Positions 53,010 through 64,000 of a stretch of 64,000 bases of DNA are shown in pieces. The stretch is taken from positions 186,001 to 250,000 of the forward strand of contig NZ_CANMEU010000002.1 of assembly GCF_947497045.1 (NCBI RefSeq), given 5' to 3'. The stretch is from an uncultured Tateyamaria sp. GTDB taxonomy: Bacteria; Pseudomonadota; Alphaproteobacteria; Rhodobacterales; Rhodobacteraceae. Each line of letters begins with the position of its first letter. Position 1 is the first letter of the stretch. The notes under the pieces were generated by a model. The model did no database searches and was not told the origin of the DNA. It saw nothing but the letters and a program-made list of their open reading frames with translations. The translations under genes and the position numbers were made by a program.

Positions 53010-53723
53010 TTAATCCTCGTGCCGGGCATTGATCCGGCGTGACACCGAATAGGGGCCGTCCGGCTTGGTTCGGTCGAGGCGGAACAGTGTCGCGGTGCTA
53101 TAGCTGCCCTCAAGGGACGCCGCCGCCATCATCACCAGCAAAGTCGCGTTTGGAACGGTCTTGGTCGACAGGCTGTCCACCACCTCAAAGGTGAATTGGT
53201 CCGCGTCGATGGTCAACGTGCCCTGCCCGTCCTCAAACAGGATCGGCACAAGCCCATCCGGCGGGATCGCAACGATTTCATCGGAAACCATATCCGATAC
53301 CGGCAAGTCAAGAGTGGCCAGCGCCCCCTCATCCATACCTTGCGCGATCAGATCAGGGGCCGCGCGCAGATAGACACTTTCCTGCAAGGCCAGGCAGCGC
53401 AATCCATAATCCCGATAGATCGGCCACTCACTCGGGGCGTCCGGCTCCAATGCCGCAGCACGTGCCGCAAAGAAGGATGGGCAGGACGACACAGCGATCT
53501 CGCGTCCCGTATCTGCCCCTTCCTGAATGATGAACTGATCCTGCCATTGCGCGGTCAAGAGTTGTTCAATCGCGTCTGGCGCATTTGCCGCCCCATCAAG
53601 CACAAAGAAACGTTCAAACCCGGACGGGGCCAGTGTCGGCAATTCATCCGCATGACCCTCATACCCTGCTGCGATGGCCAAGCAGACCAAGGGTGCGCGG
53701 GCCAGATATCGGTAAGAGATCAT
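53010..53723 (-). CDS. Secreted protein of unknown function
   Basis: A 237-residue protein with a signal peptide (VCLAIAAGYEGHA), one Cys pair in the mature chain (SSCPSFF and GLRCLAL) and a mixed alpha/beta profile. Its start overlaps the stop of the lysozyme-like gene (ATGA), so the two are translationally coupled. No family recognised. An inhibitor, receptor or partner of the coupled lysozyme is conceivable but untested. Confidence 0.65.
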   Translation of the reverse strand: MISYRYLARAPLVCLAIAAGYEGHADELPTLAPSGFERFFVLDGAANAPDAIEQLLTAQWQDQFIIQEGADTGREIAVSSCPSFFAARAAALEPDAPSEWPIYRDYGLRCLALQESVYLRAAPDLIAQGMDEGALATLDLPVSDMVSDEIVAIPPDGLVPILFEDGQGTLTIDADQFTFEVVDSLSTKTVPNATLLVMMAAASLEGSYSTATLFRLDRTKPDGPYSVSRRINARHED

Positions 53724-54301
53724 TTTTCATCTCCAGTGTCGTCCGCGGACTTCTTGGCTTCGCCTTCAAAGAGACCTTTGACAAAGGCATTGCGCGTGCC
53801 CGAAATCCCCTTGCGTTTGCATTCGCTGGCCGCTTTCGTCCAGTCCTTGTCCTTGACCGCCTTCACGAAGGTCGGGAATTTTTTGCGCAGGTTTGTCATG
53901 CCGAGGTTAAAGATCATGTCGAACAGGGCCAGTCGCACATCTTCGGAATAGGACGCGAAATCAGGAAATATCTTTTTGAGTTCCGTGCGAAAGCTCTTGA
54001 TATGCGCACTCATCTGCGCCTCGATCTTTGAGGAAGGCAATGTCAGGCTCTTGTCATGTTTGTAGGCGCTGGCCTTGAACCCTTTGCCCTTGGCAACAAC
54101 CGCATCCCAATCCGTCTTGATATCGGCCGCGCTGGCCGCCGCATTTTTGGCATTCACGAATGACAGCTTTTGAGCAGCTGCCAGATTTGGCAGCATGTGC
54201 CCTACGCCGACGGTCACCTTGCCAACACTGTCGAGATACATGTGCGGGATTTTGCCTTCGTACAGAACAAGCTTTTTCTTCAGTCGACTTTCAAGGCCCA
54301 T
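53720..54301 (-). CDS. T4-lysozyme-fold (GH24/pesticin-like) protein
   Basis: A 193-residue protein whose N-terminus carries the catalytic layout of phage T4 lysozyme: Glu15 (LYEGK), Asp24 (YLDSVG), Thr30 (KVTVGVGH). The spacing 9 and 6 is the same as E11-D20-T26 in T4 lysozyme. A later helix, LALFDMIFNLGM, also matches. There is no signal peptide; the N-terminus and C-terminal tail are charged and Lys-rich. It is not in a phage context. It could be a murein hydrolase that leaves through a holin-like or secretion route. It is coupled to a secreted protein gene. Confidence 0.8.
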   Translation of the reverse strand: MGLESRLKKKLVLYEGKIPHMYLDSVGKVTVGVGHMLPNLAAAQKLSFVNAKNAAASAADIKTDWDAVVAKGKGFKASAYKHDKSLTLPSSKIEAQMSAHIKSFRTELKKIFPDFASYSEDVRLALFDMIFNLGMTNLRKKFPTFVKAVKDKDWTKAASECKRKGISGTRNAFVKGLFEGEAKKSADDTGDEK

Positions 54302-54428: not shown

Positions 54429-56597
54429 TTAGCGTTCAAGTGTCGTCAAAATGCGGCTGTCCAGTGAATTGAGTGATCCAAGACGTTGGGCCAGTGCATC
54501 CGCATATCCACCCGCGGATTCCGTTGTCGGACGCACCCCATCAAATATCTGGCGGTCCGAGTGGATGACGATGATCTTGGTTTTGCCCAAGGACGTATCA
54601 TCAACCAGAAAGGCCAGCTTGCTGCCGTCCTGCCCGTCGGCTGCACTGTGCGCCACCCGAAGCCTCAGGTCGCCCCCGCGCCCGCCGCGCAGGTCCGCAA
54701 GGCTGTTGTCGGCCATAAAAAGGTTTGGCAGCAGGTGAAACACATTGCCCGAGACATCCAAGGCAGACACGAACAGATACCCGTCAGTCATCTCGGACGG
54801 GATGATGATTTCGATGACCGGATTCTGGCCAACATAAAAATCGCCCGTGGGGTTGAGCGTGCCGTCAGCCCCGTTCCTGAACTCGATACCAACGCCAGCC
54901 TCGGGGACATTTGGCAGAACGCCATCAATCAGACACAGCGTGGGGTTCAGAATGTCGACCTCAAGGGCGAGGCTGCGGTCCCCGATGGCCTCTGTCAACT
55001 GATCCGATAGGCTGTCGCGGCTTGCGGCACTGTCCAGCCGCCCGGCCACAAGCACCTGCCCCCCGTTTGGATAGCCCGTCAGCGGCGCGTCCATGACGTC
55101 CAGATCGCCGCAGTTTTGATGGGCTTGCAGGATCGGAGCCAGGGTCTGCGGGTCCAGAAACCGGGGGCCAAGGTCGATGCGTGCCACCACGTCGAGCGCG
55201 CCCTTGATATCCCCTTCGGTCAGGGCTGCGGTCAGCGTGTCCTGTTCCGTTTTATCGTAGGTCAGCCCGCTTATCTGGACGCGCTGCGCATCTGCGTGTA
55301 CCCGCCAGTCGGGCAGATGGCTGACCGCATCGACAAGGCGCAAAACATCAGCGTCCCAACTGGGCGGTATGTCCCCGGTGGCCAAGGTCAACTCGGTGGT
55401 GCCGCCCGATTGCCCGACCAGACTGTCCAACGCATCGCGGGCCGTTTCGGAGGGGACATGACCCACCGCCAACGGCTGTTCGTTTTCGGCGCGCGACACC
55501 ACCAGCGTGTAGGGATCGACCACCGGGTATTGCGGGCCAAGCAAGCCGTCCAAAGCACCTGATACGTAAGCGCCCGCGCCAATGGCTGCGACGGCGAGTA
55601 CAGCCAGAATGGGCACGATGCCCCGCCGCTTGGACGGCGTAACGGGGGGCGGCGTAGTCTCGACTGGTGCGATGGGGGCCTGTGTGACAGTCGATGCCTC
55701 AGGCCTTGCGTCCGGAGCGGGACGGCGCACGACAACGGTACGGTCCTCGTCAGCGGTATCGGGGGGCGCGAGCGCATCCAGGACGGCTTGGGCAGTTTGC
55801 AGACGATCTTCGCGATCCGGCGTCGTCATCCGGTCGATCAGGGATTTCAGCGGCTCGGGAACGCCGCTTGTGTCGAGGGGCTGCGCCTTGATCTTGACCA
55901 CATCCATAAGGTTGTTGCCGATATTGGGCTTTTTGCCGCGAAAGGTGGACAGCAGCAACGCCCCCAAAGCGTAGATATCGGCGCGCGCGTCGGTCTGCCC
56001 GCTCAGCTGTTCGGGGGCGGCATAGGCGTATTTGCCCGCAAACTCATTGCCCACAATCGTTTCGGCACCGGGGTTGGTGTCCTTGGCGATGCCAAAGTCG
56101 ATGATCACCGCGTCATTGGGATCACCATCGCGCAGGATGATGTTGTCGGGCGACAGATCGCGGTGAACGATATTCTTGCGATGGGCCGCGACCAGACCTT
56201 CGGCCACCCGGCGCGCCACGATCAACAGGTCCTGAGCCGACATTCCACCGTCCCTGAGCTTGCGATCCAGACCGGGGCCGTCGACATAATCCATCACCAG
56301 ATAGACATGCCCATCATCGGTGCGTTGGTTGTCGTAATAGCGCACAATCGCATCATGGCGGATTTCGCGCATCTCTTCTTCGCGGGTCATCAGCGCCAGA
56401 AAGGCTTCGTCGCGCGAAAACTCGGTGCGCAGGGCCTTGACCGCCACGACACGACCCGAAATCTCGCTTTTGGCGCGATAGACTTCGGATGTGCCGCCAA
56501 GGCCCAGCACCTTGTCGATGCGATAGGTGTTGTTGAGCACATCCCCGATCTGAAAGATGCCGCGATTGGCCCTGGAACTCACAATCGGCCCTCGCAT
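54429..56597 (-). CDS. Membrane Ser/Thr protein kinase with DUF4384-like C-terminal domain
   Basis: A 722-residue protein. The kinase domain (about 24-280) has glycine loop GLGGTSEVY, Lys54 (VAVKALR), HRDLSPDN with Asp147, DFG Asp167 and APEQ. The HRD loop has Ser where Lys is usual. A Pro/Thr-rich juxtamembrane stretch (280-325) and one membrane helix (326-346) follow. The exterior part includes a tandem BON-like stretch and, near 595-700, a DUF4384-like domain (GDFYVGQNPVIEIIIPSEM, GYLFVSALDVSGNVFHLLPN). Transmembrane signalling from envelope to cytoplasm is likely. It precedes the ompA-like gene's end by 31 bp. Confidence 0.85.
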   Translation of the reverse strand: MRGPIVSSRANRGIFQIGDVLNNTYRIDKVLGLGGTSEVYRAKSEISGRVVAVKALRTEFSRDEAFLALMTREEEMREIRHDAIVRYYDNQRTDDGHVYLVMDYVDGPGLDRKLRDGGMSAQDLLIVARRVAEGLVAAHRKNIVHRDLSPDNIILRDGDPNDAVIIDFGIAKDTNPGAETIVGNEFAGKYAYAAPEQLSGQTDARADIYALGALLLSTFRGKKPNIGNNLMDVVKIKAQPLDTSGVPEPLKSLIDRMTTPDREDRLQTAQAVLDALAPPDTADEDRTVVVRRPAPDARPEASTVTQAPIAPVETTPPPVTPSKRRGIVPILAVLAVAAIGAGAYVSGALDGLLGPQYPVVDPYTLVVSRAENEQPLAVGHVPSETARDALDSLVGQSGGTTELTLATGDIPPSWDADVLRLVDAVSHLPDWRVHADAQRVQISGLTYDKTEQDTLTAALTEGDIKGALDVVARIDLGPRFLDPQTLAPILQAHQNCGDLDVMDAPLTGYPNGGQVLVAGRLDSAASRDSLSDQLTEAIGDRSLALEVDILNPTLCLIDGVLPNVPEAGVGIEFRNGADGTLNPTGDFYVGQNPVIEIIIPSEMTDGYLFVSALDVSGNVFHLLPNLFMADNSLADLRGGRGGDLRLRVAHSAADGQDGSKLAFLVDDTSLGKTKIIVIHSDRQIFDGVRPTTESAGGYADALAQRLGSLNSLDSRILTTLER

Positions 56598-56628: not shown

Positions 56629-57231
56629 TTAGCTCAACGCTTGGAATTCGACGCGCCGATTGACATCGCCCAAGGGATCATCAGGGTCAAACGGGAACCG
56701 CTCGCCCGCGCCCACCGCCTCCATCCGCTCGGCTGGATAGCCGCAATCAGTGATCAGAAAACGCTTCACCTCTTCGGCGCGCAGCTTTGAAAGGCGTTCA
56801 TTATAGCTGGTCGAGCCTGACGCATCGGTATGCCCCAGAATGCGTATCTTTTGGACGTCAGCCGCCTTGAGCGCGTCACATAACGCCCCCAGTTTCGGCC
56901 TTTGATCAGCGCGCAACGCGGCGGAGTCAAAATCGAAGGCCACATTGACGTTCACCTGCTCGTCCCTTGGGACAATCGCGGCAAGCTCTTCCGCCACCGG
57001 CGCATTGGTGGTCGTGGTCGCGGCGACCGTGGTGTCATTGGTCGTGGCGGTGTCTGTCGTTGCGGTCTGGGTGCTTGGCGTTGCAATCACCAGCCCGCGC
57101 GTTTTCTGCTTTTTGAAATTTTCCGTCATCTCTTCGACGGTTTGGTCGGCCGCGTTTTGCGCCATGGCGGGGGCGTGGAGGCCAGTAAGGCTGACCGTGG
57201 CTGCGACCAGAAATGTGTCGAGGCGTATCAT
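56629..57231 (-). CDS. OmpA-family peptidoglycan-binding protein
   Basis: A 200-residue protein with a signal peptide (MIRLDTFLVAATVSLTGLHAPAMA), a Thr/Ala-rich low-complexity linker (around 45-75) and a C-terminal OmpA domain: NVAFDFDSAALR, ILGHTDASGSTSYNERLSKLRAEEV with the Asp and Arg that bind diaminopimelate, and NRRVEF. It anchors something to murein in the periplasm. It is upstream of and in line with the Ser/Thr kinase, forming a likely two- to four-gene operon, and divergent from the caspase-lectin gene. Confidence 0.9.
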   Translation of the reverse strand: MIRLDTFLVAATVSLTGLHAPAMAQNAADQTVEEMTENFKKQKTRGLVIATPSTQTATTDTATTNDTTVAATTTTNAPVAEELAAIVPRDEQVNVNVAFDFDSAALRADQRPKLGALCDALKAADVQKIRILGHTDASGSTSYNERLSKLRAEEVKRFLITDCGYPAERMEAVGAGERFPFDPDDPLGDVNRRVEFQALS

Positions 57232-57375
57232 TGGAATTCCTTCATAAAAATATATGAGCAATCTGCCCAAAGCCTATCGCAACGGGCGACACATGCCAAA
57301 TTTTTTCGCCGCAGTGGCTCGGGGTACGCTGGCCGGGTGGTCAACCTCTCTGTCCTTCTTGCGTCCAGCATTTTG

Positions 57376-57432: not shown

Positions 57433-59223
57433 ATGATTCGACTGAATTTTCAAATACTGATCGCACTGCTTTTTCTGGTTGGCGGCATGTCGCCGGCCAC
57501 GGCCGAAAAGCGCACCGCATTCCTGTTGGGCAATGGTGCCTATGCGCATGCCGCCAACCTGCAAAACCCCTCTGCCGACGTCCGATTGATCGGCGGGGTG
57601 CTCGAAAGCCTCGATTTCGACGTCACCCTGCACGAGAACCTCACGCGCGCCGAAATCGGCCAAAGCCTGTCGCAGTTTCTGGACGATAACGAGAATGCGG
57701 ACGTCACATTCGTCTACCTTGCAGGGCACGGGATGCAGTTTGAAGGGCGCAATTACTTCCTTGGCACCGATGCAAAGCTGAGCACCGAATTTGATATTCC
57801 ATCCGAGACCACGCCGATCGACGCCATCATCAAGGCGATCCAGAAAACCGCACATGCCTCGTTGATCTTTGTGGATGCCTGCCGCGACAATCCGCTGGCC
57901 AATGCGTTCTATCAGGACAATTTTTCCGAAAGCCGGGCATTGCAAACCCGTGGGCTTGTGCCGCTCAGGGCGTCTGCGCAAGGTGCGATGGTGGTCTTTT
58001 CGGCCTCACCCGGTCAGGTCGCCTATGATGGGGCGGGCGCGAATTCACCCTTTGCCGCCTCGGTTGCACGCCATCTGGACACTCCGAATTCCGAGATCCT
58101 CAGCGTAATGAAGCGCGTCATCGGTGACGTCAAGCTCGAGACCGAGGACAAGCAGATCCCGATCATCAACAACGACTTGGCAACTGAAATTTACCTGCGC
58201 ATCGGCGAAGGTGAAGCGGGCCAGACCCTCGCCTTTCAACGCGAGCAGGCGCTTTATGAGGCGGTGCGCGAAATGAACTCTCTGCGCGGCTGGTCCGTGT
58301 TTCTGGACCGCTTTCCCGACAGCCAGTTCGCGGGCCTTGCCGAACAGGAACGCGACGCCCTTGCCCGATCCGAAAACATCACGGTCGCAAATCTCGCGAG
58401 CGAGAGCACGGATCGCGGCAGCGACCAAGGGACCCTTGGGCTGAGCGTGGCCGACATCCGTTTGATCCAGACGAAACTTGCCACCCTGGGCTATGATGCG
58501 GGGATCGCGGACGGGGTGATGGGCGACAAGACCCGCAAATCCATCGCGGATTTCCAGCAGGCCAACCAGTTGCCTTCGACCGGGATAATGACCGAGTTTA
58601 CGGTGCGCGCGATGGATATCGACGTCTCGGGCCTCGAGGTCAGCACCATCCCGATCTATTCGTCCCTTGATGCGCGCAAATGGGCTCCTGATGCGCTCGT
58701 GCAGGTCGAAACGGATCCGCGGCTGATCCGGGCCGCCGAGGTCCTGAAGGACTGGGAAATCCTGTACGGATGGTACGGCGATCATCTCTATATCGGGGTG
58801 CTGGCATGGCGCATGAAGTGGCCCGAAGCACAGGCCTTGGCCGAACGCGCGGGCGGATATCTTGCGGTGATGGGTGACGCGGAAGAGAACGATTTCGTCT
58901 ACCAGCTTGTCAGCCGGGATGATCGGTTTTGGCAGGTCAGCAACGCAGGCCAGGGGCGTCACAGTTACGGACCCACCTTTGGGTTCTACCAGAAGAAAGA
59001 AGGCCGCGAGCCGGATGGCGGCTGGTCATGGGTCAACGACCAGCCCGTGTCCTTTACAAACTGGGCCTATGGAAACCCCAACAACGGGGTCGATTATGAC
59101 AGCGAATATGCGACTTTTTACCGATGGACCAAGGATATGGACCTCGAAAAATTCACTGGCAACGAGTGGAACGATGTGGACCTGCCCCGCACCGGCCGCG
59201 CCTTTATCATCGAGATTGAGTGA
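57433..59223 (+). CDS. Secreted caspase-like protein fused to peptidoglycan-binding and C-type-lectin domains
   Basis: A 596-residue protein. A signal peptide (1-24) is followed by a caspase/C14 domain with catalytic His99 (YLAGHGMQ) and Cys150 (FVDACRDNP). A helical stretch (260-320), a PG_binding_1 domain (339-394: LIQTKLATLGYDAGIADG, SIADFQQANQLPSTG) and a C-terminal C-type lectin fold (about 448-596) follow. The lectin shows WPEAQALAERAGGYLAV, EENDFVYQL, GGWSWVNDQPVSFTNWAYG and EWNDVDLP. Bacterial caspases act in stress or defence proteolysis; lectin modules bind sugars. The domain order suggests a protease held at murein that senses or binds glycan. The caspase and lectin calls are direct pattern matches; the role is inference. 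Confidence 0.82.
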   Translation: MIRLNFQILIALLFLVGGMSPATAEKRTAFLLGNGAYAHAANLQNPSADVRLIGGVLESLDFDVTLHENLTRAEIGQSLSQFLDDNENADVTFVYLAGHGMQFEGRNYFLGTDAKLSTEFDIPSETTPIDAIIKAIQKTAHASLIFVDACRDNPLANAFYQDNFSESRALQTRGLVPLRASAQGAMVVFSASPGQVAYDGAGANSPFAASVARHLDTPNSEILSVMKRVIGDVKLETEDKQIPIINNDLATEIYLRIGEGEAGQTLAFQREQALYEAVREMNSLRGWSVFLDRFPDSQFAGLAEQERDALARSENITVANLASESTDRGSDQGTLGLSVADIRLIQTKLATLGYDAGIADGVMGDKTRKSIADFQQANQLPSTGIMTEFTVRAMDIDVSGLEVSTIPIYSSLDARKWAPDALVQVETDPRLIRAAEVLKDWEILYGWYGDHLYIGVLAWRMKWPEAQALAERAGGYLAVMGDAEENDFVYQLVSRDDRFWQVSNAGQGRHSYGPTFGFYQKKEGREPDGGWSWVNDQPVSFTNWAYGNPNNGVDYDSEYATFYRWTKDMDLEKFTGNEWNDVDLPRTGRAFIIEIE

Positions 59224-59253: not shown

Positions 59254-60180
59254 TCATACCACGCGCATCGCCCCATAGGCCCGGTGCCCCGGAAAGGTCG
59301 ACTTGAAATATCTGGAGGCCACCGCATCCAGCGCGTCAAGGCCAAGATCCAGCGCCGCGTTCAACTGCACCCCAAGTGCCTCGGTCCGCGCCGCCCGCGC
59401 CTGGCCGTCGGTATAATGGGGCGCGATCCGCTCGGACCAGAAATAATCCATCCATCCGTAATCCGCCACCTTGGCGATGTCGAACCCGTCAAGGGCGGCC
59501 ATCACACAGCCGAGGCGCGCACCGAATATGGCCCAGTCCCCACGTTCCACATCCGCCCCGACCGAGCACCACACCTTGAGCCGATCAAGGTTGCGCGGCC
59601 CGATATGCGTCGCAAGTGCCTCGGCCCGTGGCAAGTCCGGATAGGCGTCATAGGCGATCTGACCATCGGCGAGGTTCAGCTTGACCCCTTCGCGAAATCC
59701 GGCCCGAAACGCCTGGTAGTCTGACCCCGTGACAATCACCTCGGACAGTAACCGGTTCACCTGATAATATGGCACCGTCCAGCAGAAATCGACGGCCCCT
59801 CTGGGGCCTGCCGCGTTCTCGTGGGTCTGGAGGGTCCGCAGCGTGCTGCGCGGCCAGATTTTCACCCCGCCATTGCCATAGCACAGCCCGTTCACGCCGT
59901 TGCGCGCGCTGAATGAAAACACCCGTGCCCGATCCCGTGGCGCGATGTCAAAGCGCGCTGACAGAAATTCCGGGTCCAGAAGCACGTTGTCCGCATCTAT
60001 CGTGATCACATGCGGCGAGACGCAGACCTCTCCGGCGCGGCGATGTGCAGCGTCAAACCCTTTGATCCCCGCCACCCGGCGCGTGCGGGGCACCACCTTC
60101 TGGATGCGCTCAAAATGGTCCTCCGCATTGGGCTCATCAAAGCTGAGGAACACCACGTCACAGGTGCCAAGATCAATCAT
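59254..60180 (-). CDS. Glycosyltransferase-like protein (GT-A type), function uncertain
   Basis: A 308-residue protein starting at 60180, where ATGA overlaps the stop of the upstream gene. The N-terminal part reads DVVFLSFDEPNAEDHFERIQ, followed by HVITIDADNVLLD, a DxD-like motif as in nucleotide-sugar transferases. The rest contains NGVNGLCYGNGGVKIWPRS and VDFCWTVPYYQVNRL. Probably adds a sugar to a surface or secreted glycan. Family not certain. It is the last of three overlapping genes. Confidence 0.65.
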   Translation of the reverse strand: MIDLGTCDVVFLSFDEPNAEDHFERIQKVVPRTRRVAGIKGFDAAHRRAGEVCVSPHVITIDADNVLLDPEFLSARFDIAPRDRARVFSFSARNGVNGLCYGNGGVKIWPRSTLRTLQTHENAAGPRGAVDFCWTVPYYQVNRLLSEVIVTGSDYQAFRAGFREGVKLNLADGQIAYDAYPDLPRAEALATHIGPRNLDRLKVWCSVGADVERGDWAIFGARLGCVMAALDGFDIAKVADYGWMDYFWSERIAPHYTDGQARAARTEALGVQLNAALDLGLDALDAVASRYFKSTFPGHRAYGAMRVV

Positions 60181-60629
60181 GGCACTCCCCATTCGGCGTG
60201 AGGGCCCAAGGTGATGATCGCGGCAGGATGCCATTTGTCCCGCAACAGGATCCGCCGCCACGCAAGATAGCTGCGCCAGTCGATCTCGGGCGCAAGGGGC
60301 GCATTGAGGGCCGCGTTTGGCAGGGTGTCATAGGCCAGATTTTCCGCGATCAGGGGCCGGTAATCGACCAGATCGACGATGAACACCGGCACCATTTCCT
60401 TGGTTCTTGCCGTCTCGCGCACCGTGTCCAGATAGGGTGCGATCTGGTCCCAGTGCAGCCCTGTGACATCGACAAGCATGATCGACATGAACCGGTCACT
60501 GTGCAGCAATCCCTCGACCTGCGCGCTGTCTGCGTTGAAGGGCCATGCCGCCTCAAACGCGTCGGCGGGGCGTTCCGATCCGTCGGCCCGGTCAGCGTTG
60601 TCATCAGGGGGGATGGCATCAAATGTCAT
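60177..60629 (-). CDS. Unknown protein between two glycosyltransferase genes
   Basis: A 150-residue soluble protein overlapping both neighbours by ATGA, so translation is well supported although the product is not recognised. It begins acidic (IPPDDNADRADGSERPADAF) and continues with alternating strands and helices (SIMLVDVTGLHWDQI, VPVFIVDLVDYRPLI). It may be an accessory or acceptor-handling subunit of the flanking enzymes. Confidence 0.6.
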   Translation of the reverse strand: MTFDAIPPDDNADRADGSERPADAFEAAWPFNADSAQVEGLLHSDRFMSIMLVDVTGLHWDQIAPYLDTVRETARTKEMVPVFIVDLVDYRPLIAENLAYDTLPNAALNAPLAPEIDWRSYLAWRRILLRDKWHPAAIITLGPHAEWGVP

Positions 60630-61693
60630 GGTCCAAGCACCCTGGCAGGGCGCGTCCGAGCAGCGAGTTCTGTAAACAGCGCCCGCCATGATGCCCCCAA
60701 GACGGCCCAGTCGCGCGCCCGGCTGACCTGCGCCGCTGCCTTGCCGCGCGCGGCCCAAACCGCCGGTCCCTCAGCCAAGGCGGTGCCCAATGCCTCCGCC
60801 AACGCATCTGCCTCGAACAGCACCCCGGTCGAGGGCATGGTCACCACGTCCCGCAATCCGGGCGTGTCTGTGCCCAACACGCCACGCCCGAGGGTCTGCG
60901 CCAGAATGGCCGAGCCGGATGTCAGGGAGTCGGTATAGGGCAGCACCGCCATATCAGCGGCCCCATGCACCTGTGCAAGATCGGCAGTATCCAGAAATTC
61001 CATCCGGGTCATAATGCGTGGATCATCCGGGATCGACAGATCCTCCACGTCAGAGGCCCGGCGACCGGCAAGGATCAGCCGATCATCCGGCCCGGCCACC
61101 TGTCGGAACGCGTCAACAAGGGTGCCGGGGGCCTTGTAGGCGCGCATCTGCCCCGCCAGCAGCAGCACCATATGCGCGTCGTCCAACCCCAATGCGGCAC
61201 GGGCCGTGGCGCGCGGAACAACAGGATAGATCCCATCGTAATTGCCATGCGCAATGACGCGCACCTTGTCCAAGGGCAGCGTGTGATGCGCCATCGCCGC
61301 CGCCAGGGCAGGCAGCGAGTGCACGTGCACCACATCCGCCAGTGCCAGCAGGCCGTTGCGGATCTGTGCGGCTGCCGCGCGCTCTCGCGGGTTGTGGGGC
61401 ATAAGATTGTGCATGCTCCACACGATCCGCCCGCCCCGGTCGCGAAAGGCGGACAAGGCATCCAGAAGCCCCTGGGGTGTCATGGTACCGTTGGAGATGG
61501 CCGCCGTCTCCCAATGCAGATGCAGGACGCGGCCAGCGCTCGGCTCTGACCCAAGGCCTGCGATATCTGCCAGCGGGGTCGTAAGGACGGAGGGCCCTAG
61601 GGACCGATAAAGCAGGTCCTGATAAGGATTAAAGTCACGGTAGTCCGGGTAGAAGCACACCTCAACCGGACCGGGAGAAACGGCATTGAACAT
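60626..61693 (-). CDS. Glycosyltransferase family 4-like protein
   Basis: A 355-residue GT-B enzyme. The start is placed at 61693 (MFNAVSPGPVEVCFYPDYRD); the frame is open upstream to 61909, but that would overlap the divergent gene. Signs of the family are WSMHNLMPHNPRERAAAAQI in the N-domain and VLLLAGQMRAYKAPGTLVDA at the domain border. The nucleotide-sugar region MAVLPYTDSLTSGSAILAQT follows. It probably builds a surface polysaccharide or glycosylates a protein. Coupled by ATGA to the next gene. Confidence 0.82.
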   Translation of the reverse strand: MFNAVSPGPVEVCFYPDYRDFNPYQDLLYRSLGPSVLTTPLADIAGLGSEPSAGRVLHLHWETAAISNGTMTPQGLLDALSAFRDRGGRIVWSMHNLMPHNPRERAAAAQIRNGLLALADVVHVHSLPALAAAMAHHTLPLDKVRVIAHGNYDGIYPVVPRATARAALGLDDAHMVLLLAGQMRAYKAPGTLVDAFRQVAGPDDRLILAGRRASDVEDLSIPDDPRIMTRMEFLDTADLAQVHGAADMAVLPYTDSLTSGSAILAQTLGRGVLGTDTPGLRDVVTMPSTGVLFEADALAEALGTALAEGPAVWAARGKAAAQVSRARDWAVLGASWRALFTELAARTRPARVLGP

Positions 61694-61811
61694 GCCCAAC
61701 TCTGGCACAGGCGGCGCGTTTTGGCGAGACCACGCCGATGCGCGAGGGGCCTCAGTTGACTCGATCAGGTGCCGGTTTCTATCCTTTGACCCAGGGTAAG
61801 GGGGCCTTCTC

Positions 61812-62135
61812 ATGCGCAGTTGGATTGTGGGACAATTGGTTTTGCTGATCGGCGTCATCGGTTTACCGGGGGCCGTGCGGGCCCAAACCTTTGGCAGCGA
61901 TACGTTCACAACACAGGCTCAGGCCGAGAATTATCTGCGCCAAAGCCCGACCGGCCCCCGCGCTAAAGCGGCGTTCATGGCCATCGTGGAATTCCAGCTG
62001 GCGCGCGAAAACCCAGGTTTTTCTCGCTCTGACATCGCTCAAAGCGTCAATCTCTCGGTGCCGGGACGCTCCGCCAGCCCCGGCCAGACCACCGGTAACA
62101 CTCAACGAGATGATGGCCGTGGGGATCTTTACTAA
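61812..62135 (+). CDS. Small secreted protein preceding a caspase-like gene
   Basis: A 107-residue protein with a signal peptide (VLLIGVIGLPGAVRA) and a helical mature part (TTQAQAENYLRQSPTGPRAK, FQLARENPGFSRSDI). Its 3' end overlaps the following caspase gene by 26 bp, implying co-translation. No family recognised. Confidence 0.65.
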   Translation: MRSWIVGQLVLLIGVIGLPGAVRAQTFGSDTFTTQAQAENYLRQSPTGPRAKAAFMAIVEFQLARENPGFSRSDIAQSVNLSVPGRSASPGQTTGNTQRDDGRGDLY

Positions 62136-64000
62136 CCATCTGCCGCGCCCCCGGTTTGGGGCATCGTTTCAGCGGCCCGCGCTGGCCTGCTGCGTTGTGC
62201 TGGCCGCAATCACGGTCGGATCCGCCACCCTGTCCCAAGACAACACCGCGCCGCAAAAAGCGTCCCGCGTGGCCCTCGTCATCGGCAATTCCGCCTATCA
62301 AAATGTCGAACCTCTGCCCAATCCGGCCAACGATGCGCGACTTATTGCCGAAAAGCTGTGGGAGTCCGGTTTCGAGGTGATCGAGAGCATTGATGCGGAT
62401 CGCGAGACGATGCTGGCCGACCTCGCCACCTTCCGCAGCCGCCTGCGCGAGGGCAGTGAGGCATTGTTCTTTTATGCGGGCCACGGGGTGCAGGTGGGCG
62501 GGCGCAATTACCTGTTGCCGATCTCGGTCGCACCGTCTTCGATCGATGATCTGCGCGCCCAGTCGGTGGATGCGCAACTGTTCGTGGACATCATGGATGG
62601 CTCTGGCGCGCGGCTGAACATCGTGCTGCTGGATGCCTGCCGCAACAACCCGTTTGTGGACATCACCAGTCAGGATGCGGACGAGATCGCGACCCGCGCC
62701 ATCACCATCGGGCAGTCGCGCGATGAGGTGCAGCGCGGGCTGGTCCTGCTGTCCGAGGCCTCGACCGGTGGGCTGGCCGAGATGACGGCCGGTGACAGCG
62801 AAACGATGATCAGCTTTGCCACTGCCCCCGGCGCGGTCGCCTTTGACGGTGTCGGCCAGCACAGCCCCTACACCGCCTCTATCGCCGAAACTATCGACGA
62901 GCCGGGCCTGGAACTGGCCGAGCTGTTTCGCCGTGTGCGCGGCGGCGTGCGCGAACGCACCGACGGCCAGCAGATCGCCTGGACCACCAGCACGCTGGAA
63001 AACCCGTTCTATTTCAAGCCCGACACCGCCAATCTGCGCGGTGCGACAACCGGGCTCGGGGCCGAAGGCGACACATTGGGCACCCTGCCCCCGCAGCGTA
63101 TCGTGGACCGTATCTTCTGGCGTGCGATCGAGGGGTCCGACCGGTTGGACGCGTTCGAGGCCTATATCAAGACCAGCCCGGATGGGGCCTTTGCCGCGGA
63201 CGCAAGCGCGCGCATCGCGGCCTTGGGGGGGGTACCGGACGCTGTGCGCGCACCCGACCCCGCCCTGCCGGCCTTGCAACCCCGGACCGAGGCCGCACAA
63301 ACCGACTTTCGCGCAGATGTCATTGCGCGGCTCGACAGCGACGCTCACGCGGTTCCGATTGGGGTTGGTCCGTCTCGGGTCGCCCTGTCAGATCAGGGCG
63401 CGGATGGGTGGGTCTATGTGTCGCGCGCACCGCGCTTGGGCGAGATCCGCGCCGCAGATGGCACCCCATTGGCACAGGGGGCTGTGCATTACGTGCGCGT
63501 CGGTGACATGTCGGAATTCGAACCCCATGTAGGCTCCAACGGCGGGCGCGAAACGCTTGAGGGCAAAGTGCTGGGCGAAGGTGGTGCGACCGAGCCGGTC
63601 GCGGTTGACGTCGAAAGCTATGTCGATGCCTGCGACATGCTGGCGGGCAACCCCTATGACAGCGAACGGGTCACGGCGGGCACGCGCCAGTTCATTCTTG
63701 ACCGAAACTTTGAAGGGGCCATCGTCGTGTGCGAGTTGGCCATCGCCCGTTACCCCGATGTGGTGCGGTTCTGGGCGCAACTGGCGCGCGCCTATCGCGC
63801 AGCGGGCCGCTATGAAGACGCACGTGTCTGGCAGGTCCGCGCGGTCGAGGCGGGATATATCAACGCCATGGTCTATCTGGGCCAGATGCATCTGGATGGA
63901 CAGGCCGTCGCGCAGGACTTTGAACGGGCCTACGCGTTGTTTGAAGCGGCTGCGGCTGCGGGCGACACAGCGGCGCTGACCGCGCTGGCCTGGGTCCACC
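62110..64000 (+). CDS. Caspase-like protein with helical repeats (3' end outside window)
   Basis: An open frame of 630 codons running off the right edge. After a membrane or signal segment (residues 23-42) comes a caspase/C14 domain with ALVIGNSAYQNVEPLPNPAND, catalytic His125 (FYAGHGVQ) and Cys177 (LLDACRNNP), typical of bacterial orthocaspases. The domain continues to about residue 300. The C-terminal part visible here has helical TPR/Sel1-like repeats (YPDVVRFWAQLARAYRAAGR, MVYLGQMHLDGQAV). Starts at 62110 and 62113 are adjacent ATGs. It is probably periplasmic or membrane-anchored. Confidence 0.85.
   Translation, partial: MMAVGIFTNHLPRPRFGASFQRPALACCVVLAAITVGSATLSQDNTAPQKASRVALVIGNSAYQNVEPLPNPANDARLIAEKLWESGFEVIESIDADRETMLADLATFRSRLREGSEALFFYAGHGVQVGGRNYLLPISVAPSSIDDLRAQSVDAQLFVDIMDGSGARLNIVLLDACRNNPFVDITSQDADEIATRAITIGQSRDEVQRGLVLLSEASTGGLAEMTAGDSETMISFATAPGAVAFDGVGQHSPYTASIAETIDEPGLELAELFRRVRGGVRERTDGQQIAWTTSTLENPFYFKPDTANLRGATTGLGAEGDTLGTLPPQRIVDRIFWRAIEGSDRLDAFEAYIKTSPDGAFAADASARIAALGGVPDAVRAPDPALPALQPRTEAAQTDFRADVIARLDSDAHAVPIGVGPSRVALSDQGADGWVYVSRAPRLGEIRAADGTPLAQGAVHYVRVGDMSEFEPHVGSNGGRETLEGKVLGEGGATEPVAVDVESYVDACDMLAGNPYDSERVTAGTRQFILDRNFEGAIVVCELAIARYPDVVRFWAQLARAYRAAGRYEDARVWQVRAVEAGYINAMVYLGQMHLDGQAVAQDFERAYALFEAAAAAGDTAALTALAWVH

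Follow-up and report, generated by a model that had tools for sequence, protein, structure and literature searches.

A predicted exported caspase homologue with peptidoglycan-binding and C-type-lectin-like domains, encoded beside a T6SS-type kinase in Tateyamaria

In the window, a stretch of 64,000 nucleotides from an uncultured Tateyamaria sp., a gene on the plus strand (57433..59223, ATG start) encodes a protein of 596 aa, predicted to be exported, in which Pfam searches and alignment identify caspase, PG_binding_1 and C-type-lectin-like domains. This caspase is most likely a partner of a PpkA-type T6SS kinase and of a murein-binding OmpA protein encoded divergently. The tie between caspases and this T6SS control kinase recurs in related genomes, and we consider it a more interesting result than the protein itself. 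To our knowledge, little is known of what bacterial caspase homologues do outside the cytoplasm, and the recurrent genomic tie of exported caspases to a T6SS kinase offers a concrete, testable role for them. The open-access literature, screened by titles and abstract beginnings (subscription papers fall mostly outside this scope), yielded no description of such a link. What can be established from sequence is the domain anatomy, the conserved catalytic dyad, the co-location of the genes and the absence of the kinase-OmpA pair from the T6SS cluster of its own genome.

Domain anatomy of the caspase protein

The protein comprises a putative signal peptide (approximately residues 1-24), a caspase domain (26-252), a probably helical linker (approximately 257-338), a PG_binding_1 module (340-394) and a C-type-lectin-like domain (CTLD; 443-596). 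Profile searches matched all three domains: Peptidase_C14 over residues 26-252 (E = 3.9e-35), PG_binding_1 (PF01471) over residues 340-394 (E = 2e-15) and, with a modest score, Lectin_C over residues 461-557 (E = 3.1e-5; 25.1 bits against a gathering score of 22.6). A profile of the full-length family reaches the paracaspase MALT1, caspases and PG-binding domains. The intact active site reported in the preliminary description is borne out: His99 lies in an AGHG motif, Cys150, the sole cysteine of the protein, lies in DACRDNP, and both residues are invariant in all 109 aligned family sequences, the window protein included (those of at least 540 aa among the 120 listed, the 11 shorter ones having been dropped). 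The signal peptide and the PG_binding_1 module described there are likewise supported. The N-terminus is a hydrophobic segment that ends in SPATA directly before EK, with the consensus AxAE across the family, and in a one-by-one domain scan at E <= 1e-3, Peptidase_C14 was detected in 71 of 71 members, PG_binding_1 in 69 and Lectin_C in 48 (the 71 scanned members form a subset of the 120 listed sequences, themselves a subset of the 176 found).

The protein is most likely an orthocaspase with an intact active site that is exported to the periplasm, the simplest location for it, and held to murein through PG_binding_1, with the CTLD as the putative ligand-sensing part. This architecture is a new variant built from known parts. 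A putative peptidoglycan-binding domain has been described in 11 of 671 prokaryotic caspase homologues, for which an extracellular location was suggested (PMC3501461); the window protein shares with these the combination of a caspase and a putative murein-binding domain but adds the CTLD and the T6SS-kinase context, and the word 'lectin' is absent from the main text of that paper. Cyanobacterial caspase-CLec proteins, which are diversified by DGRs (PMC7517822), also have an orthocaspase N-terminus and a C-terminal C-type-lectin-like domain. Compared with these proteins as characterized in that source, the window protein differs in its predicted export, its murein-binding module, its conserved CTLD and the lack of a DGR template in the stretches searched.

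The kinase-OmpA pair and its T6SS context

The gene divergent from the caspase gene, 162 bp away, encodes an exported OmpA-domain, murein-binding protein (56629..57270, minus strand; OmpA E = 2.4e-18), the listed TTG start of which is probably too early. It is accompanied on the same strand by a gene for a transmembrane Ser/Thr kinase (54429..56597), with the kinase domain at approximately residues 17-290 and one predicted transmembrane helix (324-350), which would leave the C-terminus in the periplasm (topology by hydropathy alone). On the other side of the caspase gene, three minus-strand genes follow: a conserved neighbour (59254..60261; no Pfam match) that is probably a glycosyltransferase, a second conserved neighbour (60177..60758; no Pfam match) that overlaps the adjoining genes and has an uncertain start, and a glycosyltransferase (60626..61909; Glyco_trans_1_4, E = 5.9e-11) with a true start that is probably later. 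Beyond these, on the plus strand, lies a second caspase gene (62110..64000; Peptidase_C14, E = 1.1e-33), which starts at a chosen ATG and runs 1,064 bp past the window end (equivalent to 62110-65064). Its predicted exported product has TPR/Sel1-like repeats (Sel1, 28.3 bits, below the cut-off of 30.7; TPR_19, 27.9 bits) and a PG_binding-like end. The window genome encodes two caspases, and this locus holds both.

Two further Tateyamaria genomes (L003 and L005) share the gene order of the locus. A Cribrihabitans locus (L072) retains the caspase and the downstream genes, and the kinase and OmpA genes are absent from that 20-kb stretch. The preliminary description had read the protein as a glycan-triggered protease at the cell surface; this reading is partly supported, and the context, with its T6SS-type kinase, OmpA protein, glycosyltransferases and second caspase, points to envelope signalling.

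Some features of the locus are recorded here in their own right. The interval between PhoX and the kinase (53010-54301) holds a gene with a phage-lysozyme domain and one for a small protein, neither of which occurs there in the close relative L003; for its absence from L003, the former was rejected as a member of the module. A small exported ORF of 107 aa (61812-62135) overlaps the start of the second caspase, and a similar small ORF is present in L005. The N-terminus of the OmpA protein carries, directly after the signal peptide, a conserved KQKTRGL-like segment (33 of 36 by a loose pattern). As evidence of caspase cleavage this segment was dismissed, since it is also present in most loci without a nearby caspase; it is possibly a candidate cleavage site, or a mere family trait.

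Loci of related kinases were selected by homology to the kinase C-terminus, independently of caspases. Of the 295 genomes searched, 83 gave a match, which in 44 (the window genome and G240 included) was at E < 1e-20, and 40 of the 42 other strong loci were analysed (G206 and G247 were left out). Of the 40 loci, 33 have an OmpA gene within 500 bp of the kinase; within 5 kb, an M15 peptidase gene is present in 31 and a caspase gene in 22. In the 31 loci closest by E-value (L109-L139), a cut that was drawn after the M15 pattern had been seen, the corresponding counts are 31 for OmpA, 31 for the M15 murein peptidase and 20 for caspases, and in the nine more distant loci they are 2, 0 and 2. The M15 model was built on eight of these loci, in all of which Pfam Peptidase_M15_4 confirmed the assignment.

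Genes for Fha/TagH, TssK, TssL, TssM and PP2C lie on the other side of the kinase. TssM was found in 25 of the 31 closest stretches, at least one T6SS gene in 26 and none in five (L112, L124, L129, L133 and L134); six of the nine distant loci had a T6SS gene match. The T6SS gene names rest on NCBIfam and Pfam searches of L111 and of the cluster on contig C12 of the window genome (see below), and the PP2C proteins score under the NCBIfam cut-off (188 and 207.7 against 230), the one on C12 being above the Pfam PP2C_2 cut-off. With OmpA and M15 genes in all 31 and T6SS genes in 26 of the 31 closest loci, the kinase at 54429-56597 is, by its genomic context in relatives, of the T6SS PpkA type.

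The proximity of caspases to these kinases exceeds the expectation derived from the number of caspases per genome (108 in 31 genomes; computed for the 31 closest loci only). Of the 31 genomes, 16 have a caspase domain within 5 kb of the kinase match, where 0.29 would be expected, and 28 have one within 50 kb, where 2.41 would be expected; these figures overstate the evidence because related genomes are not independent. The count of 16 is measured from domain match to domain match and that of 20 by the edges of the caspase gene. Eleven of the 31 closest kinase loci lack a caspase within 5 kb, and some of the contigs end nearby. In the caspase tree, the caspases beside kinases fall into several clades. 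On the T6SS side of the kinase match, at a distance of 28-42 kb, 13 of the 31 genomes have a caspase, often with another 3-8 kb away on the opposite side, so that, as far as gene positions indicate, caspases may flank both ends of the T6SS cluster.

This last arrangement would also suit a periplasmic defence or self-destruct protease that digests incoming effectors or mediates programmed lysis when the envelope is breached, as part of a defence island travelling with T6SS genes, and orthocaspases have been discussed in relation to cell death in the portion of the literature represented by PMC3501461. We consider such a role unlikely: a PADLOC search for known defence systems returned only kinase-domain matches to several systems and weak matches to the OmpA domain and the caspase (32.3 bits for the latter), and a signal peptide and a murein tether are unusual for a cytoplasmic suicide protease. 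That the caspase is itself an effector delivered by the T6SS, in keeping with the T6SS linkage by gene position of other caspases in relatives, is very improbable given a predicted Sec-type signal peptide conserved across the family.

The arrangement in several Tateyamaria genomes differs from that of other genera. In the window genome, the only M15 homologue found is on contig C12, inside a T6SS cluster that comprises TssA, the sheath small subunit, TssF, TssG, TssH, TssK, TssL, TssM, Fha and PP2C, with a partial match to the large sheath subunit under its cut-off. In this cluster M15 comes directly after PP2C, at a distance of 101 bp, and the customary position of the kinase-OmpA pair is vacant. 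The same order of PP2C and M15 without the pair was found in G403, G240, G406 and G398, the last of which has no kinase match, whereas G409 retains the T6SS order of other genera. The displaced pair adjoins an exported caspase in four of four Tateyamaria genomes: it lies beside the caspase-PGB-CTLD gene in the window genome, G403 (L003) and G240 (L005/L071), and beside a different caspase, CTLD-less by Pfam, in G406 (G404, with a distant kinase of 32% identity and no adjacent OmpA match, was left out of this count). Judging by gene order, the pair has moved out of the T6SS cluster in these four genomes. In G231, a single run contains T6SS genes, the kinase, OmpA and M15, along with two caspases and relatives (33% identity) of two window neighbours; given this run, the block in the window looks as if it were a detached T6SS flank.

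Such relocated pairs, beside two different caspases, together with the observed-versus-expected counts, argue against genomic hitchhiking, in which caspases and T6SS genes would share variable regions with no functional coupling. The abundance of caspases speaks for it (42 of the 108 matches in the 31 genomes are within 50 kb of the kinase match, and several clades are involved), and on balance we regard hitchhiking as quite unlikely. The linkage of the caspase-PGB-CTLD protein to the kinase was seen only in the three Tateyamaria genomes named above (the window genome, G403 and G240) and, being confined to them, could be recent or passive. The caspase-CTLD family as a whole does not seem tied to the kinase, judging from the Cribrihabitans locus (L072) and from G055 and G082, two genomes with caspase-CTLDs that are absent from the list of 83 kinase-matching genomes and that, going by their handle numbers, were among those searched.

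A possible protease input to the PpkA pathway

TagR may have an FGE/SUMF1 (CTL-like) fold; searches on this point gave no confirmation. In Pseudomonas, TagR is a periplasmic activator of PpkA (PMC6657622); RtkS of Serratia is periplasmic and binds the periplasmic domain of PpkA (PMC6082577), and TssW of Acidovorax binds PpkA (PMC12607579). Taken together, these accounts present the proteins that bind or activate PpkA as periplasmic or outer-membrane and as different between lineages. An exported caspase encoded beside a PpkA-OmpA pair fits that position. The likeness of the window caspase to TagR, RtkS and TssW, all exported and acting on or binding PpkA, is one of proposed role; it differs from them in being a protease homologue, no protease being described among those three in the sources cited.

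We tentatively favour, at a probability somewhat short of even, the reading that the caspase acts as a protease in the periplasm and is linked to the PpkA pathway. Envelope damage or a glycan ligand would be felt through the tail formed by the CTLD and the PG_binding_1 module, and ligand or damage at this module would activate the caspase. The caspase would then cut a periplasmic substrate, for which the kinase ectodomain (residues 351-722) and the N-terminal segment of the OmpA protein are candidates, and the cut might set kinase activity and thereby T6SS assembly or firing. The caspase would in this way be comparable in role to TagR, RtkS and TssW as a periplasmic input, but one built on a protease.

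A wider version of this proposal, which we hold to be doubtful at present, is that exported, murein-anchored caspases serve as protease-based inputs of the T6SS threonine-phosphorylation pathway in Rhodobacteraceae. These caspases would carry exchangeable sensing tails (Sel1-PGB, PGB-CTLD and others), the kinase-OmpA pair would stay with a caspase after leaving the T6SS cluster, and the sensing of envelope damage or glycans would be converted to firing by limited proteolysis. The genomic link suggests that the varied periplasmic inputs of PpkA may include proteases.

The lectin-like domain and the spread of the family

The preliminary description had assigned the protein a complete C-type-lectin-like C-terminus. 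The lectin-like assignment stands: in addition to the Lectin_C match, a profile built from 16 CTLDs matches solved C-type lectins, such as the macrophage mannose receptor (E = 1.6e-12). 'Complete' is too strong because the Pfam match of the window protein spans only positions 3-82 of the 107 in the model. Animal C-type lectins carry conserved disulfide cysteines; these were sought in the sequence of the window CTLD and are absent, the domain containing no cysteine, and 82 of 109 family CTLDs are cysteine-free. The motifs of calcium site 2 in C-type lectins are EPN/QPD and WND; the window CTLD has NPN and WND at these places, and the motifs vary across the family. The calcium-ligand positions are partly kept, with Asn580 in 28 and Asp581 in 104 of 109 members.

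Between the window CTLD and that of L003, there are four amino-acid-changing and 46 silent codon differences (a count with no formal test), and by this comparison the domain looks conserved by selection. DGR-driven variation of the CTLD was considered and rejected: searches of the window and of six further stretches found no template copy, the only reverse transcriptase lies on another contig, and the amino-acid changes are few. That reverse transcriptase, a protein of 553 aa (L189, G000:C10) for which no CTLD link was found, is the sole match of its kind in the genome.

These properties bear on the possibility that the protein is a self-contained, glycan-triggered envelope protease, in which the CTLD watches a glycan of the cell itself or of a neighbour, possibly a product of the glycosyltransferases encoded alongside, and cutting by the caspase is local, with no need of the kinase. 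Such a protease is conceivable and rather unlikely in our judgment. In its favour, the neighbouring genes of glycosyltransferase type persist in two further Tateyamaria genomes as well as in Cribrihabitans, in the latter without kinase or OmpA genes in the stretch, relatives without a listed kinase match exist, and the CTLD shows few amino-acid changes. Against it, there is no known sugar ligand, calcium ligands are only partly kept, disulfides are lacking, and the recurrent kinase-OmpA-caspase grouping would be left unexplained.

When proteins were searched for the family, with the best 7997 candidates scored, 176 clusters matched at E <= 1e-10. Tateyamaria, Cribrihabitans, Sulfitobacter, Ruegeria and Frigidibacter are among the sources named in the 120 listed; the family is called Rhodobacteraceae here from source names, the tree labels of the named loci being Roseobacteraceae or Paracoccaceae. 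The CTLD is present in 18 of 394 genomes of Rhodobacteraceae. In a class-wide sample, with at most 10 candidates scored per genome, CTLD matches were found in 7 of 385 genomes and were strong only in the window genome and G055, both of the same family. The full caspase-PGB-CTLD protein occurs in 3 of 20 genomes of the genus. Thus, on these counts, the architecture is rare across the class and settled within its own family, in agreement with the rarity of caspase-lectin proteins noted earlier. In G055, a caspase island (C1:970000-1009999; L037 and L038) holds seven caspases within approximately 25 kb, with tails that include PGB-CTLD, SH3, LprI, DUF4384 and NADase_transloc.

The window CTLD is the sole Lectin_C match of its genome. 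The search of 394 genomes yielded 25 CTLD loci, which encode 14 caspase proteins, four proteins in which a cyclase, a transmembrane helix and a CTLD are joined, four short exported CTLD proteins (L056-L058 and L060) and three others. The cyclase proteins (L052:748-1944, plus; L054:1492-2709, minus; L055:1387-2544, minus; L059:721-1920, plus) carry a CTLD as in the window caspase; Pfam detected Guanylate_cyc in four of four and Lectin_C in three, and the helix is predicted by hydropathy. The fusion of the CTLD to a cyclase through a predicted transmembrane helix in four genomes fits a periplasmic sensor module. Assignment of the window protein to the EACC1-associated caspases (NF047832), a model that we take to be tied to System 4, was rejected (42.9 bits against a cut-off of 140). 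System 4 is a membrane two-gene conflict system in which the caspase is sometimes replaced by a cNMP cyclase (PMC7159879); on that account, caspase and cyclase alternate there on a shared part much as they do here on the CTLD, whereas the window locus has different partner genes.

A tree of the CTLDs was set aside because three of its rows (L053, L065 and L066) held wrong fragments. In the caspase tree of 63 rows, which has long branches and weak deep forks and of which only the starred groups were used, the 19 CTLD-bearing caspases split into two groups of 15 and four. With at least two changes indicated by starred branches, the CTLD tail of these caspases was apparently exchanged or gained on two occasions. 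In two genomes (L041 and L042), the group of four adjoins CHASE2-cyclase and DUF928 genes.
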